A DNA stretch of 64,000 bases from Luteimicrobium album (GTDB taxonomy: Bacteria > Actinomycetota > Actinomycetes > Actinomycetales > Cellulomonadaceae): the NCBI RefSeq assembly GCF_030161555.1, contig NZ_BSUK01000001.1, positions 4,092,001-4,156,000 of the forward strand, in the 5' to 3' direction. A model generated the notes under the pieces. It worked only from the letters and a program-made list of their open reading frames with translations. It had not been told where the DNA came from and made no database searches. This document shows, piece after piece, positions 29,671-54,606 of this stretch (positions within the stretch are counted from its first letter, which is position 1; each line of letters begins with the position of its first letter). The position numbers were made by a program, and so were the translations under genes.

Positions 29671-29690
29671 CTATCCGATGGGACGCAGAG
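29655..29690. other. Putative attL, phage/host junction
   Basis: The integrase stop codon (29671-29673) and the last recognisable TadA codons (IADVTRAE) meet here. Serine-integrase phages carry attP next to int, so the core should lie in this interval. The exact core cannot be defined without attR. Confidence 0.6.
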
Positions 29691-31122
29691 TGCTCCAGAC
29701 CGGGACGACGTCGGCGCGCCGCTCCTCGAAGCGCACCTCGACCCGCGCGATCAGAGCCCGCAGCGCGGACCGCTTCGCCTCGACCGGGAGCGTCACCCAG
29801 TCCGCCAGGACCTCGCGCGCGATCTTCGACGGGTCGTCGGGCATGCGCACGATCAGCCGCTCCGCCGCGGCGAGGCCGGACGTGAGCCGGTCGCGGCGCT
29901 CCATGATCTCGTCGCGCGTCACCCGGTACGCGGCCTCCGGCACAAGCCCCGAGGCGAGGTGCCCGGTGAGGGCGGCGAGCTGGCGGTCCAGGCCGGTGAT
30001 CTCGCGGGCGATGCGCTGCGCCTCGAGGCGCGCGTCCGATCCCTCGACGGCGGCCCGGGCCGCGGTGTTCTCGACGTCGTCCGCGACGTCGCGCAGCCAC
30101 GCGAGCACGGCGTCCTCGACGAGGCGCAAGGAGATCGACCAGCGCGGCCCGTGTCCCTCGGCGCGGCCGAAGTCCCCGCACCGGTACCCGAGGAACCCTT
30201 CACGCTGCCGGTTCCGCGCCGACGGGGCGATGCGGTACCCGTTCATCCCGGCCCCGCACTCGCACCGCGCGATCCCAGACAGCAGGTACCGGCGCTTCAC
30301 CTGCCGCTCTGCCGCGCGCGCCTCACGCTCGGCCCGGTACGCCTCCCACGTCTCGACGTCGACGATGCCCTGGTGCGCGCCGTCGTGGAGCTCGCCGTGG
30401 TAGACGACGTACCCGGCGTGGATCGGCGAGTCGAGGCACTGCACGATCGTCGTGTCGTGCCACGCGGGGGCGTGCATCGGCTTGAGGCCGAGGCCGTTGA
30501 ACCAGGCTGCGAGCTCGCGGTGCCCTGCGCCGGCGAGGTACCGGCGGTACGCCTGCTCGATGTACGGGGCCGTGTCGGGGTCGGGGGTGACGGCGCCGTC
30601 GGCCCAGGCCCACCCCCAGGGGAGCTTCCCGCCGGGTGGGAGGCCGCGGGCGACGCGGGAGGCGTGGACCTCCTGCCACTGCTCGCTGATGCGTTCGGAC
30701 TCGAACGCGGCGAGCTCGGTCATGACGCCGCGCGCGAACCGGCCCGCGGCGGTGCCGTCGTTGGGTTCGGTGGCGGATTCGATGCGGCCGCCGGCGACGT
30801 CGACGCGGTCGGCTGCGATGGCCCAGTCCTTGCGGTTGCGGGACAGGCGGGACCAGCGCCACAGGACGACGACGTCGGCGGCGCGGGTCTCGATCATGTC
30901 CATGACGCGTTGAACAGCGGGCCGCTTCCAGGTGCGCCCGGAGATGCCGGGGTCGGCTTCGACGGCGACGACGTCGTATCCGTGGCGGGCGCAGTAGTCG
31001 CGTCCGGCGGTCTCCTGCAGCTCGAGGCTGATCGACTCCTCGCGGTAGGTCGACTGGCGCAGGTAGAGGACCGCGCGCGGCGGCGTGTCGGGGACGGGGC
31101 GGAGGCCAGCACGAGGAGTCAT
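29671..31122 (-). CDS. Large serine integrase (site-specific recombinase)
   Basis: A 483-residue recombinase that integrates and excises the phage. The resolvase domain shows AVLYLRQSTYREESISLELQ with catalytic S24 and VVVLWRWSRLSRN. A recombinase domain (GGKLPWGW...) follows, then a zinc ribbon (CECGAG ... YRCG) and a C-terminal coiled coil (residues ~370-430). ATG 31122 is chosen because a longer version would overlap the next gene. No excisionase (recombination directionality factor) was recognised. Confidence 0.95.
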   Translation of the reverse strand: MTPRAGLRPVPDTPPRAVLYLRQSTYREESISLELQETAGRDYCARHGYDVVAVEADPGISGRTWKRPAVQRVMDMIETRAADVVVLWRWSRLSRNRKDWAIAADRVDVAGGRIESATEPNDGTAAGRFARGVMTELAAFESERISEQWQEVHASRVARGLPPGGKLPWGWAWADGAVTPDPDTAPYIEQAYRRYLAGAGHRELAAWFNGLGLKPMHAPAWHDTTIVQCLDSPIHAGYVVYHGELHDGAHQGIVDVETWEAYRAEREARAAERQVKRRYLLSGIARCECGAGMNGYRIAPSARNRQREGFLGYRCGDFGRAEGHGPRWSISLRLVEDAVLAWLRDVADDVENTAARAAVEGSDARLEAQRIAREITGLDRQLAALTGHLASGLVPEAAYRVTRDEIMERRDRLTSGLAAAERLIVRMPDDPSKIAREVLADWVTLPVEAKRSALRALIARVEVRFEERRADVVPVWSTLRPIG

Positions 31123-31129
31123 AGGCGGG

Positions 31130-31780
31130 TCAGAACTTCCACTCCCAGCCCGTGTCGCCCTGGCCGTTGAGGCTGTACACGACGACCCCATGCTTGGTCT
31201 TGGAGTCGAGCACGACCAAGCCCTTCGCCTTCTGTGCTGGGCCGATCGATGTGGGGATCACTTCGGAGTCATCTGCGCATGCGAACGCGGCTGCTGTCGC
31301 GGGGTTCGACTGGTTGTAGCCGTCTGAACCGATGAGCGACCAGGTGGCTGGACCGATACCGAGAGCCGTGCCTCCGGTGAGCGACAGCGCCTTCACGAGT
31401 TCCTTCGACGTGCGCGCTTCGACCGTGAGCGCGACGAGGTGGCCAGCTTTCGACTTGGTGGCGAACTGGCCGTCGCATGTGGGGTCGACCTTGATCTTCG
31501 TGACCCGGATCTGGAATGCCGCGTCCCCGAGATTGTCCCCGTTCGAACCTGACACCCAGCCCCACTCCCCGGCCTTCTTCTCCACGTTCCCTCGCGCGCT
31601 CGTCGGAGCCGCGGTCGGTGTGACCTCAGCGGTGGGGGTCGGCTTGAGCTGGGCTTGGACTGTCTGAGTGACGGTCGCCGTCACCGTGACGGGCGGTGCA
31701 CTGGGGCCCGATGACGAGCACGCGGCGAGCGTCCCAGCTGCGACGACAGTGATGGTTGCGAGAGCGTACTTACGAGGCAT
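31130..31780 (-). CDS. Prophage lipoprotein, DUF4352-like, possible superinfection exclusion factor
   Basis: A 216-residue lipoprotein with signal peptide MPRKYALATITVVAAGTLAACSS (positions 1-23, lipobox AACS), a Pro/Thr linker and a C-terminal domain. The domain contains FQIRVTKIKVDPTCDGQ and HLVALTVEAR, resembling DUF4352/telokin-like folds. GATGAT six bases before the ATG may be its leaderless -10. Surface lipoproteins expressed from lysogeny modules often block superinfection, so that role is inferred from position only. Confidence 0.75.
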   Translation of the reverse strand: MPRKYALATITVVAAGTLAACSSSGPSAPPVTVTATVTQTVQAQLKPTPTAEVTPTAAPTSARGNVEKKAGEWGWVSGSNGDNLGDAAFQIRVTKIKVDPTCDGQFATKSKAGHLVALTVEARTSKELVKALSLTGGTALGIGPATWSLIGSDGYNQSNPATAAAFACADDSEVIPTSIGPAQKAKGLVVLDSKTKHGVVVYSLNGQGDTGWEWKF

Positions 31781-34431: not shown

Positions 34432-34540
34432 GGTCCCGATCCTGTCGGCGCTGTTCTCGCTGATGCCACCTTCGGCCCTAGGGGAACACACAAGTGACAG
34501 CGCCACCTTACGGCCTGACCTGCAAGTTCGTGCGCACCTC

Positions 34541-34581
34541 TTGACAAGTGCGTGACAAGCGCGGCAGGCTCCACTTGTCAC
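34541..34581. promoter_or_regulatory. Early promoter and repressor operators
   Basis: TTGACA (34541-34546) with CAGGCT 18 bases later forms a rightward promoter. GTGACAAG (34552-34559) and CTTGTCAC (34574-34581) are a perfect eight-base inverted repeat across it with a 14-base centre. Further half-sites AAGTGACA (~34492-34499) and GTGACAAA (~34872) lie nearby. Confidence 0.55.
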
Positions 34582-34646
34582 CCGGGACAAACGGAGGCAC
34601 GATGGTCACCCGACGACCGAAAGTCAGATTCCTCAGGGAGGTGTGG

Positions 34647-36122: not shown

Positions 36123-36497
36123 ATGACCACCAACGACATCGCCACCCCGACGTCGGACGGCCTCACCGACGACCAGCTCGTCGTCGTCGAACAGCTCGCG
36201 ATCCGGAAGGCCAAGCTCCGCGACGAGAAGACCTCGATCGACGAGGAGATCGCCGCGATCGACACCCAGCTCCGCGCGCTCCTCCCGGACGGGACGACGC
36301 AGGCCGGGCAGCTCAAAGTCATCGTGACCGTCCCGGCGCGCCTGGACACGAAGAAGCTCGCCGAGGCGTTCGGGCCGGCGCAGCACCCGGTGCTCTACCG
36401 GGCCGCGATCGACACGGCCGCGGTCAAGGAGCACATGTCCCCCGCCCAGCTGCGCCCCTTCCAGGTCGCGGGCGCGCGCACGGTGACGGTCCGATGA
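36123..36497 (+). CDS. Hypothetical early protein with coiled coil
   Basis: A 124-residue protein. A coiled coil (residues ~18-56, KAKLRDEKTSIDEEIAAID) leads into a small domain with LDTKKLAEAFGPAQHPVLYR. GGAGA lies ten bases upstream of the ATG. No function assigned. Confidence 0.6.
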   Translation: MTTNDIATPTSDGLTDDQLVVVEQLAIRKAKLRDEKTSIDEEIAAIDTQLRALLPDGTTQAGQLKVIVTVPARLDTKKLAEAFGPAQHPVLYRAAIDTAAVKEHMSPAQLRPFQVAGARTVTVR

Positions 36498-36949
36498 CCG
36501 CCGTCGCAGCGCCCACGACCTGCGCCGAGTGCGGCGTCCCGCTCCGCGTCCGCGGTCTGCCGCGCGACGAGTGGCCCGCCGGGTCCAAGCAGCTCGCCGG
36601 TCACGGGAAGTGCGGCGCCTGCTACAGCCGCGAGCTCGCCGGCGGCGGTGTCATCCCCGTCATGCCGAAGACGATCGCGACGAAGGTCGTCGAGCCGCAC
36701 GTCGCGGCGCGCCGCGCCCTGGCCGGCGACTGGGTCGAGTCGGCGGTGTGCAGGTCCCTCGACCCCGATCTGTGGTTCTCCGAGGCGCCGTCGGACGTCG
36801 CCCGCGCGGCAGCGTTCTGCGCGGTGTGCCCGGTCAAGGCCCTGTGCGCCGAGCGCGCGGAGGCCGCACGGGAGCAGTACGGGGTGTGGGGCGGCGTGAA
36901 GCGCAACGCCAAGCCGGAGCGCGTCCACGTCGTGGCGGTCGCAGCATGA
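36494..36949 (+). CDS. WhiB-like iron-sulphur transcription factor with extra N-terminal zinc ribbon
   Basis: A 151-residue protein. The C-terminal part is a WhiB domain: C86, C109, C112 and C118 bind the [4Fe-4S] cluster, and GVWGG (residues 130-134) is the family turn before the basic DNA-contact segment. The N-terminal part has two CxxC pairs (C10/C13, C40/C43), a zinc-ribbon-like arrangement unusual for Wbl proteins. Phage WhiB homologues can interfere with host sigma-factor-bound WhiB proteins. Confidence 0.85.
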   Translation: MTAVAAPTTCAECGVPLRVRGLPRDEWPAGSKQLAGHGKCGACYSRELAGGGVIPVMPKTIATKVVEPHVAARRALAGDWVESAVCRSLDPDLWFSEAPSDVARAAAFCAVCPVKALCAERAEAAREQYGVWGGVKRNAKPERVHVVAVAA

Positions 36950-39445: not shown

Positions 39446-39585
39446 CGACGCTCGCGGCCGCCGCACACACCACCTTCTGGCGCGCCCACGACCTCTGGGA
39501 GACCGAGCACCCCGACCCGCCCGACAACGAACTCGACGACGACCGCATCGACCGCCTCACCGAAGACGACCAGGAGCCCCAGTGA
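39442..39585 (+). CDS. Small acidic early protein
   Basis: A 47-residue protein with a strongly acidic C-terminal half (DNELDDDRIDRLTEDDQEPQ). ATGA overlap upstream and GTGA overlap into the primase gene, so translation is coupled. Confidence 0.55.
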   Translation: MTTLAAAAHTTFWRAHDLWETEHPDPPDNELDDDRIDRLTEDDQEPQ

Positions 39586-42093
39586 CCAACGACGTCCTCA
39601 CCGCCGCCCTCGAGCTGCTGGACGCCGGCTACTCCGTCATCCCCATCCGCGACGACGGCACCAAGGCCCCCGCCCTCACCGCCTGGAAGCAGTACACCGA
39701 CCAGCGCCCCGACGACTCCCGGGTTCGCGCCTGGTTCACCCACCCCGGCTACGACCTCGGCGTCGTCCAAGGCCACGTCTCCGGCAACGCCGTCATGATC
39801 GAGATCGAGGGCCGCGCCGCCCACCACCTCCCCGACCTCGCGCAGCTCGCCACCGACACCGGCCTCGGCGACCTGTGGGCCCGCGTCACCTCCGGGTGGC
39901 TCGAGCACTCCCCGTCCGGCGGCGTCCACTTCCACGTCCGCACCGACTCCCACCAGCCCGTCCTCGGCAACCAGAAGCTCGCGCGGGCCGCCGACGGCCT
40001 CGTCCTCGCCGAGACCCGCGGCGAAGGCGGCCAGGTCGTCGTCGCCCCGTCACGCCACCACGCATCCGGGCGCCCGTGGGTGCGGCTCGCCGGCGGTCCT
40101 GCAGACGCTGCCGTCCTCACCCCCGAGGAGCTCGACGCGTTCTGCGCGATCCTGCGCACCCTCGACGAGCAGCCCGAGCACGCCACCACGTCGACGCCCG
40201 TCGCCCCGCACGACCCCACCCAGGGCGTCACACCCGGCGACGACTACGAGAACCGCACCGACTGGGCCGACATCCTCACCCCCACGGCTGGACCCTCGTC
40301 TCCGCCCGCGGCCGCACCCGCTACTGGCTCCGCCCCGGCAAGGACCGCGGGCAAGGCATCAGCGCGACCACCGGGCACGCCGACGACCGCGACCGCCTCT
40401 ACGTCTTCACCTCGTCCACCGACTTCGCCCCCGAGGTGCCGTACACGAAGCTCGGCGCGCTCGCCGTCCTCGAGCACGGCGGCGACCACACCGCCGCCGC
40501 CAAGGCCCTCGCCGCCGCCGGATTCGGGCAGCGCGCCACCGCTCTGCGCCCCGTGCCCGACCACCCGACCGCCGACGACCTCGCCGGCCTCATCGCCCCC
40601 ACCGCCGACGGCGCGCTCCCCGTCCCGCCCGCGCCGCGCCCGCAGCTCCACGTCGTCGACGAGCCCGCCCCCGAGCAGGTCGCCGACCGCGTCGCGACCC
40701 CCGACCAGGACAACACCGCCCTCCTGTTCGTCGACGCCCACGCCGACACCGTCCGCTACGCCACCGGCCGCGGACGATGGCTCACATGGACCGGCCACCA
40801 CTGGTCCGTCGACGACCGCGAGCTCGTCCGCGAACACGCCCGCACCCTCGTCCGCCGCCTCCCCGGAGGCGAAGGCTGGGAGACCTACCGCAAGAAAGCC
40901 CTCAGCGCCCGCGGCGTCACCGACGTCCTGCGACTCGCCCAATCCGACCAGCGCATCGTCGTCGCCGCGAAGGAGCTCGACGCTCGCCCCTACGAGCTCA
41001 ACACCCCCGCCGGCATCGTCGACCTGCGCACCGGGACACTGTCCCAACCCGACCCCGCGGCCCTGCACACCCGCACCACCACCGTCGCGCCCGACTTCGA
41101 CGCGTCCCACCCCTGTGGGACCGGTTCCTCGCCGACACGTTCGCCGGCGACCCCGACATGATCGCCTTCGTCCAGCGCGCCGTCGGCATGTCCCTCGTCG
41201 GCGCCGTCCTCGACCAGGTCTTCTTCTTCGCCCACGGGTCCGGCGCCAACGGCAAGTCGACGTTCATGTCGACCCTGCAGCACATCGTCGGCCTCGGCGC
41301 CGACGGGTACTCCGGCCAAGCGCCCGCCGAGATGCTCCTCGCGACCCGCAACCACGGGCACCCCACCGAGCTCGCCCGACTGCAAGGACAGCGCCTCACC
41401 GTCACCTCCGAGATCAACGAGGGCCAGACGTTCGACGAGGCCCGCATCAAGTCCCTGACCGGCAAGGACACGATCTCCGCCCGGTTCATGCGCGAGGACC
41501 TCTTCGACTTCACGCCCACCCACACCCTGTGGGTCCTGTCCAACCACGAACCGGAGGTCCGGGTCGGCGGGCTCGCGTTCTGGCGGCGCGTCGTCATGGT
41601 CCCCTTCGTGCACACCGTCCCCGAGGGCGCCCGCGTCAAGGACCTCGAGGAACGCCTCATCGCCGACGAGGGCCCCGCGATCCTCGCGTGGGCGATCCGC
41701 GGCGCAGCCGACTACTTCGCCCGCGGCCTCGCCGCCCCCGACGCCGTCACCGCAGCCACGAAGGCGTACGAGACCGAACAGGACACCGTCGCCGGGTTCG
41801 TCACCGACTGCTGCGTCACCGGCGACCCGAACCGGCAGGACCTGCGCGTGCGGTCCGCGCAGCTGCGCACCGCGTACGAGCGGTGGTGCACCGACGCCGG
41901 CGCAACCCCCATGTCCCCGAAGACGTTCACCGTCGCGCTGCGGTCGAAGTACGGGATCCGCACCGAGCGGTCGAACTCGGCCCGATACCTCGCCGGCATC
42001 CGCCTCAACGACATCGAGGACGACGGCCCCGACGCGTCACGGGACGCGTCACCGACCCTCGACGAGCGCCTCGACCAGCAGGGGTGGCGGTAG
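39582..42093 (+). CDS. Prim-Pol primase/SF3 (D5-type) replicative helicase, two frameshifts in this sequence
   Basis: A replication protein of about 838 residues when repaired. The N-terminus (residues 1-200) is a bifunctional primase/polymerase: GYSVIPIRDDGTKAPALTAW and HSPSGGVHFHV. A linker follows, then D5-N (NTPAGIVDLRTG) and an SF3/P4-type helicase with Walker A HGSGANGKST, TSEINEG and WVLSNHEP. Frames change at 40279-40283 (C5 run) and 41110-41113 (C4 run). It should unwind and prime phage DNA, so the phage has its own initiator system. Confidence 0.88.
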
Positions 42094-42107
42094 CCCATGG
42101 CAACGAA

Positions 42108-42296
42108 TCGTGACGCGTGCGTGCCTGTTCGTGACGCGTACCCACAGCACGCGTCACGCGCTCTGACCTGCAGTTATGACGCGTGGTGACGCGATGACGC
42201 GACTTTCCAACATGACGCCCTACGCCCGCACGTACGTACGTGCGTTGCCGTCATACCCAACCCACGCATCACGCGTCACGACCACCACGACGGAGG
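42108..42296. repeat. TGACGCG heptamer array, copy A
   Basis: Non-coding, between the primase stop and the next gene. TGACGCG or its complement occurs about eight times. The block 42148-42207 aligns almost base for base with 54146-54203: TCTGACCTGC, TATGACGC and TGACGCGATGAC-CGACTTTC match in order. A perfect 16-bp palindrome GCACGTACGTACGTGC at 42228-42243 is found only in this copy. Ends at the ribosome-binding site of the next gene. Confidence 0.85.
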
Positions 42297-53692: not shown

Positions 53693-54121
53693 ATGAGCCT
53701 CGTCTACGCCACACCCGCCGACCTCGCCGCATGGACGGGCACGGCCGCGCCCGCGAACGCGGTGACGCTGCTGCGGGTCGCGTCGGGCCTCGTACGCCGC
53801 GCGACCGTCACCGCCTGGTACGCGACCAACGACACCGGCGCACCGACAGACCCCGACGTCGTGCAGGCGTTCAGCGATGCGACGTGCGCGCAGGCCGCCA
53901 CGTGGGCCACGCTCGGGATCGACCCGACGACGGCCGGCGTGGACACGGGCACGGGCGGGCGGGTCGTCGCGTCGAGGGCCCTCGGCCCGGCGAACATCTC
54001 GTACGCCGGCGCGGACGACACCGCGGCGCGGCGCGCGCAGCTCGCCGACGACCTCACCCCGGAGGCGCTGGGGATCCTCGCGGATGCGGGCCTGGTTCGT
54101 GGGGTCCGCACCCACGGATGA
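53693..54121 (+). CDS. Head-tail connector protein (gp6/gp15-like)
   Basis: A 142-residue helical protein: YATPADLAAWTGTAAPANAVTLLRVASGLVRRAT and the PDVVQAFSDATCAQAATWA helix fit HK97 gp6-type adaptors. Its stop codon TGA is itself the start of the first TGACGCG of repeat copy B. Confidence 0.75.
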   Translation: MSLVYATPADLAAWTGTAAPANAVTLLRVASGLVRRATVTAWYATNDTGAPTDPDVVQAFSDATCAQAATWATLGIDPTTAGVDTGTGGRVVASRALGPANISYAGADDTAARRAQLADDLTPEALGILADAGLVRGVRTHG

Positions 54122-54283
54122 CGCGTGCATGACGCGACCGAATCTCACGCGTCACGCCTCTGACCTGCGCGTATGACGCAGATGACGCGATGACACGACT
54201 TTCTAGGTTGCGGCCCTACGCGCCCGCACACGCCTGAGAGCAACCCGCAGACGCGTCATACGCGTCATACGCGTCATCGGAGG
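54118..54283. repeat. TGACGCG heptamer array, copy B
   Basis: Between two connector genes. Half-sites ATGACGCG recur, and the end holds three perfect tandem 9-mers ACGCGTCAT (54251-54277). The block 54146-54203 matches 42148-42207 of copy A. Copies A and B both end at a GGAGG ribosome-binding site, but the genes next to them are unrelated. Confidence 0.85.
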
Positions 54284-54288
54284 CGATC

Positions 54289-54606
54289 GTGAGCGAGCTC
54301 GACGACTTCTTCGTCCACACCGTGACCCTCACCCCGAAGACCGGAGACAGCGGCTACGGCCCCACCTTCGGCACCCCGACCGACGTGGCGTGCTTCGTCG
54401 ACGACACCGTGCAGCTCGTCCGCGCCCCCGACGGCGAACAGGTCGTCTCCTCGTCCACCGTCTACGCGCCGCCCGGTGCACCCGACGGGCCACCCGGGTC
54501 GACGATCACGTTCCCGGACGGCCGGGTCTCGACCGTCATCACGCAGGCTCGCCGCACGTCTGGGCCGCTCGACCTGCCCGACCACGTCGCATGGACGGTG
54601 ACCTGA
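54289..54606 (+). CDS. Head closure/stopper protein
   Basis: A 105-residue beta-rich protein from GTG 54289: HTVTLTPKTGDSGYGPTFGTP and VSSSTVYAPPG are typical of head-completion proteins. GGAGG eight bases upstream. Follows repeat copy B. Confidence 0.7.
   Translation: MSELDDFFVHTVTLTPKTGDSGYGPTFGTPTDVACFVDDTVQLVRAPDGEQVVSSSTVYAPPGAPDGPPGSTITFPDGRVSTVITQARRTSGPLDLPDHVAWTVT

Follow-up and report, generated by a model that had tools for sequence, protein, structure and literature searches.

A second iteron block among the late genes of an actinophage: probably an additional origin, not a gene switch

The prophage described here carries two copies of a repeat-rich block, one (copy A) directly behind the gene of its replication initiator and the other (copy B) 12.0 kb away between two late genes; judged by sequence and by analogy with known replicons, copy B is probably a further origin and not a site of gene control. 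The reading that we favour, and hold to be rather likely, is that both copies are iteron sites for the phage's own initiator, a PrimPol-D5/SF3 helicase protein (Rep), copy A being the main origin and copy B a second, origin-like site. An initial annotation of this DNA had rightly recognized a functional-looking array that occurs twice in the phage and is inserted between late genes, and had proposed a promoter, a stoperator-like silencer or a recombination linker as its function; it had missed that copy A lies directly behind a replication initiator of an origin-binding type and that the words of the blocks track Rep.

Copies A and B and their shared architecture

The window, that is, the whole stretch of 64,000 nucleotides analysed, corresponds to positions 4092001-4156000 of a 4.18-Mb one-contig genome. 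Its relevant features, in window positions, are the following.

29665-64000, no strand: prophage with both copies, a 38,334-bp unit whose right end lies outside the window
39582-42093, + strand: rep, encoding a Prim-Pol domain (PF09250), a P4-family primase C-terminal/SF3 helicase region (TIGR01613) and a C-terminal winged helix
42110-42300, + strand: copy A, with the same architecture as copy B, directly behind rep and kept in the sister phage (L022)
53693-54121, + strand: head-tail adaptor gene (phrog_541), directly upstream of copy B
54118-54155, no strand: left outer words of copy B, namely ATGACGCGT (54118-54126), ATGACGCG (54129-54136) and inverted ACGCGTCAC (54147-54155)
54160-54197, + strand: left arm of copy B, CTGACCTGC (an inverted GCAGGTC motif) followed by the direct words ATGACGC, ATGACGCG and ATGACACG
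54198-54232, + strand: conserved spacer of copy B, ACTTTCTAGGTTGCGGCCCTACGCGCCCGCACACG, the proposed unwinding region
54251-54277, - strand: right arm of copy B, three perfect tandem 9-mers ACGCGTCAT, which are inverted words
54289-54606, + strand: head-tail stopper/connector gene (phrog_3881), downstream of copy B, with a GTG start at 54289

Copy B (54118-54277) separates the head-tail adaptor and stopper genes and comprises eight TGACGC-type words, the last of them being the three perfect 9-mers. These tandem 9-mers, and a block shared with copy A, had been described in the initial annotation, and both are borne out: an 84-nt core (54146-54229 against 42148-42231) is 81% identical between the copies (E 3e-14). 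The same annotation had placed the stop codon of the connector gene in the first repeat; a stop TGA (54119-54121) does overlap ATGACGCGT, the gene that it closes being the adaptor, with the connector downstream. The extent then given to the block, up to 54283, needs trimming, as the array closes at 54277 and the remainder takes in the GGAGG ribosome-binding site of the stopper gene (54279-54283), just past the end of the block.

Eight RTGACGC/GCGTCAY words fall within 174 bp at copy B, against 0.11 expected from the remaining phage (Poisson tail about 6e-13, for a region picked after inspection), and copy A holds the same number (about 0.1 expected). Both copies follow one order: outer words, the TGACCTGC motif, two or three direct words, the spacer (conserved as CGACTTTC...CCCTACGC) and inverted words. 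Block B is built as an imperfect dyad whose two halves face each other across a stretch that is among the most AT-rich of the phage; the AT-richest 50 bp of the block (54159-54208) rank in the top 0.46% of the phage's 50-bp windows. In both blocks the AT-richest 50 bp reach 46% AT, compared with 29% for the phage, and the spacer, flanked by two iteron sets, is AT-rich only relative to this 71% GC phage. A perfect inverted repeat of 12 bp has one of its arms at 54168-54179, and this arm can pair without mismatch with the 9-mer array in either of two registers. Two more ACGCGTCAC words lie within the 3' coding end of rep (window 42030-42051), just ahead of copy A.

Folded as single-stranded DNA and compared with shuffles, copies A and B have z scores of -3.2 and -3.1, respectively, and the blocks of several relatives are more stable still (z down to -7.2); folding is not significant for L020 from the sister phage (-1.7) or for the tested stretch of L080 (0.7), from which the right arm is missing. 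The dyad is not unusual by long-range pair count alone, and a genome-wide ranking of 130-nt windows by such pairs does not single out the blocks, whereas a ranking of perfect inverted repeats does: in eight relatives the longest one of the whole record (loop of 30-130 nt) lies within a block. GC skew has no clear switch at copy A or B. Since the dyad could fold as RNA too, and since block B stops just ahead of the stopper's ribosome-binding site, a late-mRNA hairpin controlling processing or translation of the stopper could be imagined. Such an element seems scarcely probable to us: no Rfam match was found at the block up to E 1 (over the window Rfam recovers a tmRNA only, far from the block), and the block also occurs behind rep and, in relatives, in the lysogeny module, near the right end and after the stopper.

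Rep and the prophage that carries it

A serine integrase gene (29671-31191, - strand) stands at the left end of the 38,334-bp unit, whose att core is CGTC, and the unit is therefore a prophage. On the genome contig (C1), the end (4121665-4183861) holds one full prophage and 23.9 kb of a second tandem copy, the start (1-38793) repeats 458 bp of the left flank and the full prophage, and an attP-like junction of phage end and phage start, with core CGTC, is also present. The repetition at the contig ends may be due to overlap in the assembly, to a lysogen with tandem prophages or to circular phage DNA after excision. The early region of the prophage contains a gene for a WhiB-like regulator (window 36494-36949), and TGACAAG/CTTGTCAC repeats (34542-34581, in the region 34500-34600) lie just upstream of a probable HTH repressor gene; these repeats are a candidate immunity operator, with a word unlike that of the blocks.

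In the assembly the rep frame is broken twice, passing from the frame of 39582 to an ORF at 39875-41161 and another at 40777-42093, and its last in-frame stop (TAG, 42091-42093) lies immediately ahead of copy A. Only the first 235 residues of the window ORF 39582-42113 can be aligned with relatives, the homology then running in two other frames, and the rep of close relatives reads through without frame breaks. The breaks are either sequencing indels or the mark of a broken gene; an assembly completeness of only 81.6% suggests many indel errors. Because of the broken frame, the domains of Rep were assigned by reading the pieces separately and by using intact relatives. Profile matches are to PF09250 (Prim-Pol), TIGR01613 and Pox_D5 (a Pox_D5-like winged helix). 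AlphaFold models the C-terminus as a confident winged helix (pLDDT mostly 78-91 over residues 221-300) and the middle of the protein (the helicase) poorly, and a Foldseek search with the model returned ASFV PrimPol and the SaPI5 primase-helicase 7ola (prob 1.00, E 5.8e-7).

Blocks in related phages and their association with Rep

Blastn of the blocks against the phage collection gave only short chance matches (E 0.3 or worse), with L020; the L020 block compared with plasmids gave chance matches only, and no match was found for the pattern in 297 genomes of the order or for block B in 98 relatives. The exact core pattern had no match in IMG/VR, and a shorter pattern recovered from it a sister phage (L020 and L022, from one metagenome) with both blocks at the same places and the core conserved; the L020 stopper is 90% identical to that of the window. 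A looser pattern located the block in about a dozen additional actinophage contigs. Whole records of the pattern-found phages carry a block behind rep in every case and a second block in many.

Second blocks are present in about eleven phages and mostly resemble the phage's own rep block. Their sites are the head-tail region, where they precede the stopper, follow it or lie one gene past it, the lysogeny module and the right end: the block directly follows the stopper in G350, G352 and L098 (three such contigs in all), lies one gene past it in a single contig (G105), and occupies the left arm in G102, G103, G104 and G351, in G103 flanked by one gene with a match to a metalloprotease and one with a match to a transcriptional repressor. 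The distance between the two blocks in G105, G350 and G352 is 12.0-13.1 kb. Several Rep phages (G347, G348, G353, G354 and G359) have no second block, which means that replicons of this type can do without copy B. The Arthrobacter phages Constance and RootBeer have two tandem blocks behind the primase gene, with the word AGTGACA (L046 39889-40112 and L048 35800-36070); those of Constance fall within annotated gene 60.

That adaptor and stopper genes normally overlap, as had been stated for the site of copy B, holds in the block-less Microbacterium allomyrinae (stopper 42% identical), whose two ORFs do overlap; in the relative G352 the adaptor and stopper homologies are about 15 bp apart. A recombination linker, that is, homology for module exchange between phages, would draw on the matching of the copies within a phage, which could let them recombine, and on the varying position of copy B among relatives. 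Comparison with related phages, however, reveals no exchanged modules visibly bounded by the copies: block B shifts by one gene, and the surrounding synteny is kept whether it stands before or after the stopper. The words, moreover, diverge between phages, which would hinder exchange, and a linker needs neither a conserved, intact dyad nor adjacency to rep, so that we regard this function as very unlikely.

The relation of words to initiator was examined in Rep homologues gathered by protein only, of which 28 of at least 43% identity were used. At about 20 of these 28 loci, a sample not fully independent since some of its phages had initially come from the pattern search, a 6-mer recurs in the 300 bp around and behind the rep stop at a higher count than in all other windows of that locus (L188, L190, L195, L198, L203, L204, L207 and L212 are among the exceptions). 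Two phages found via the stopper gene, and hence independent of the pattern (G359 and G361), both have an array behind rep. The repeated word varies between phages and in some is without TGAC (GGGGTA, GTGGCA, CGGCAC); the Rep homologues of L208, L211, L217 and L251 are accompanied by arrays of wholly different words (GGGGTA, GTGGCA, CGGCAC and AGTGGC).

Word spectra follow the identity of the winged helix (Mantel r 0.64, P 1e-4) and of the helicase (r 0.61), and only weakly that of the PrimPol domain (r 0.26). With the helicase controlled for, the winged helix retains an association (P 0.011, in a weak partial test), and winged helix and words may both simply track phylogeny. Blocks also match within phages: the mean local score is 84 between copies of one phage and 52 across phages, with 146 of 362,880 permutations reaching the observed sum, and repetition on a less redundant set of eight phages, among them G361 as an out-of-sample case (own block pair scoring 390), gave 4 of 40,320. 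A phage's own partner is not ranked first in G102 (rank 7), G105 (rank 6-7) or G104 (rank 4-5). A block nearby is found at only 5 of 80 stopper loci; of the 16 near-complete phages whose related stopper has no block beside it, 14 are without a full Rep, and the remaining two have Rep with an array behind it.

These observations bear on the regulatory functions proposed at the outset, in which a regulated internal promoter, an operator or a stoperator-like silencer in the late operon would be bound by a phage regulator. Dense intergenic repeats ahead of a late gene would suit such a site, and copy A likewise precedes a gene. Stoperators of the L5 type have a 13-bp asymmetric consensus and are dispersed in one orientation. 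The blocks resemble them in consisting of repeated short words at intergenic sites of an actinophage, but are dense, two-sided clusters with dyad symmetry, and their word differs from the TGACAAG of the operator-like repeats at the probable repressor. The L5 consensus is not enriched (3 matches at up to 2 mismatches against 2.1 expected, none in a block), and no promoter or terminator match occurs in 53900-54500, the promoters sought being of the sigma-70 type. The second copies of relatives adjoin different, unrelated genes (repressor and metalloprotease, or near the right end), and the words track Rep. We therefore judge a regulatory site, whether promoter or stoperator, improbable.

Known replicons and a possible role for the second site

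According to PMC7581432 (citing Ubeda et al. 2007), the C-terminal domain of SaPI Rep recognises iterons directly downstream of rep, and PICI origins have two iteron sets on either side of an AT-rich region (PMC6092414). The Rep of the window is likewise predicted to be a D5/SF3 initiator helicase with a C-terminal DNA-binding domain; the iteron array lies directly downstream of rep in copy A and in most homologues (copy B is not rep-adjacent), two iteron sets surround an AT-richer region, and SaPI5 7ola is among the top structural matches. Unlike in SaPIs and PICIs, the element is a full siphovirus, its helicase carries a fused Prim-Pol, a second block lies 12 kb off in the structural genes, and the words form a large dyad. 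In pRN1 the origin is found 3' of the Prim-Pol gene, in a stem-loop (PMC4234260). The replicon of this plasmid and of phage BIP-1 shares with ours a Prim-Pol, an SF3 helicase and a C-terminal winged helix, with the array directly 3' of rep, and a region of about 100 nt is able to form a stem-loop as in pRN1; pRN1, however, is without iterons and has a single origin, whereas here the dyad is made of iterons, with tandem words on both arms. In P4, a satellite, the C-terminal winged helix of the primase-helicase alpha binds repeats, and there are two cis sites, ori1 and crr. The alpha protein has a Toprim primase (PMC4234260), unlike the window Rep with its PF09250 Prim-Pol.

The closest layout to that of the A/B pair is found in SPP1, in which oriL and oriR are 12-13 kb apart and oriR is located in the late region; the initiator, when bound to oriR, is proposed to set off the formation of concatemers (PMC6316719, PMC3485210). 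Copies A and B are, like oriL and oriR, two sites with shared repeats and an AT-rich part, one on the replication side and one interrupting the late-gene order. By contrast, SPP1 has separate G38P, G39P and DnaB-type helicase (G40P) where here there is one PrimPol-D5 protein, and oriL lies inside gene 38 while here the block is behind the initiator gene. Given a PrimPol-D5 initiator and no G38P/G39P/G40P set, the phage would work in an SPP1-like way rather than belong to the SPP1 system, and the fit of the pair to SPP1 is one of layout, not of initiator family. Since copy A fits SaPI, PICI and pRN1 and the pair fits the SPP1 layout, we read copy B as a second initiator-binding site; Rep binding to the blocks and their origin activity are what we infer from these parallels and from the sequence. 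Rep-adjacent origins are already known, and our searches of the open-licence literature turned up no account of a second copy, variable in position, in a late operon of PrimPol actinophages.

We propose that the C-terminal winged helix of Rep would read the tandem words on both arms, that two helicase rings would be loaded in head-to-head orientation and open the AT-richer spacer, and that the primase domain would then prime. Copy B may then be a further starting point or, in the way proposed for SPP1 oriR, a late site at which forks are held up by bound initiator, which would favour the change from circular to concatemeric replication. Less probably, copy B binds Rep without being an origin, as a titration, handcuffing or copy-control site or as a mere fork barrier, which is a narrower version of the favoured explanation and overlaps with it. 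This would be consistent with all the sequence evidence for Rep binding, with the barrier that SPP1 oriR is thought to be, and with second copies that vary in position and are missing from some Rep phages; against it, copy B retains the full architecture (both arms, spacer and local AT-richness), beyond the words alone.

As a tentative generalization, which we think somewhat less likely than not, we hypothesize that a group of actinophages with a one-protein PrimPol-D5 initiator may maintain a pair of matching origins, of which the second changes place among late and lysogeny genes, that the words at both sites may co-evolve with the winged helix of the initiator, and that the second site may time the switch from circular to concatemeric replication for packaging, an SPP1-like logic with an unrelated initiator. 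Should copy B prove to be a second initiator site, this group of phages (with one block, a tandem double, or two distant copies in one of several places) would be a natural comparison with which to address why some phages keep two origins and how the circle-to-concatemer switch works. It would also provide a simple sequence rule for finding actinophage origins, and many initiator-word pairs for the study of winged-helix specificity.
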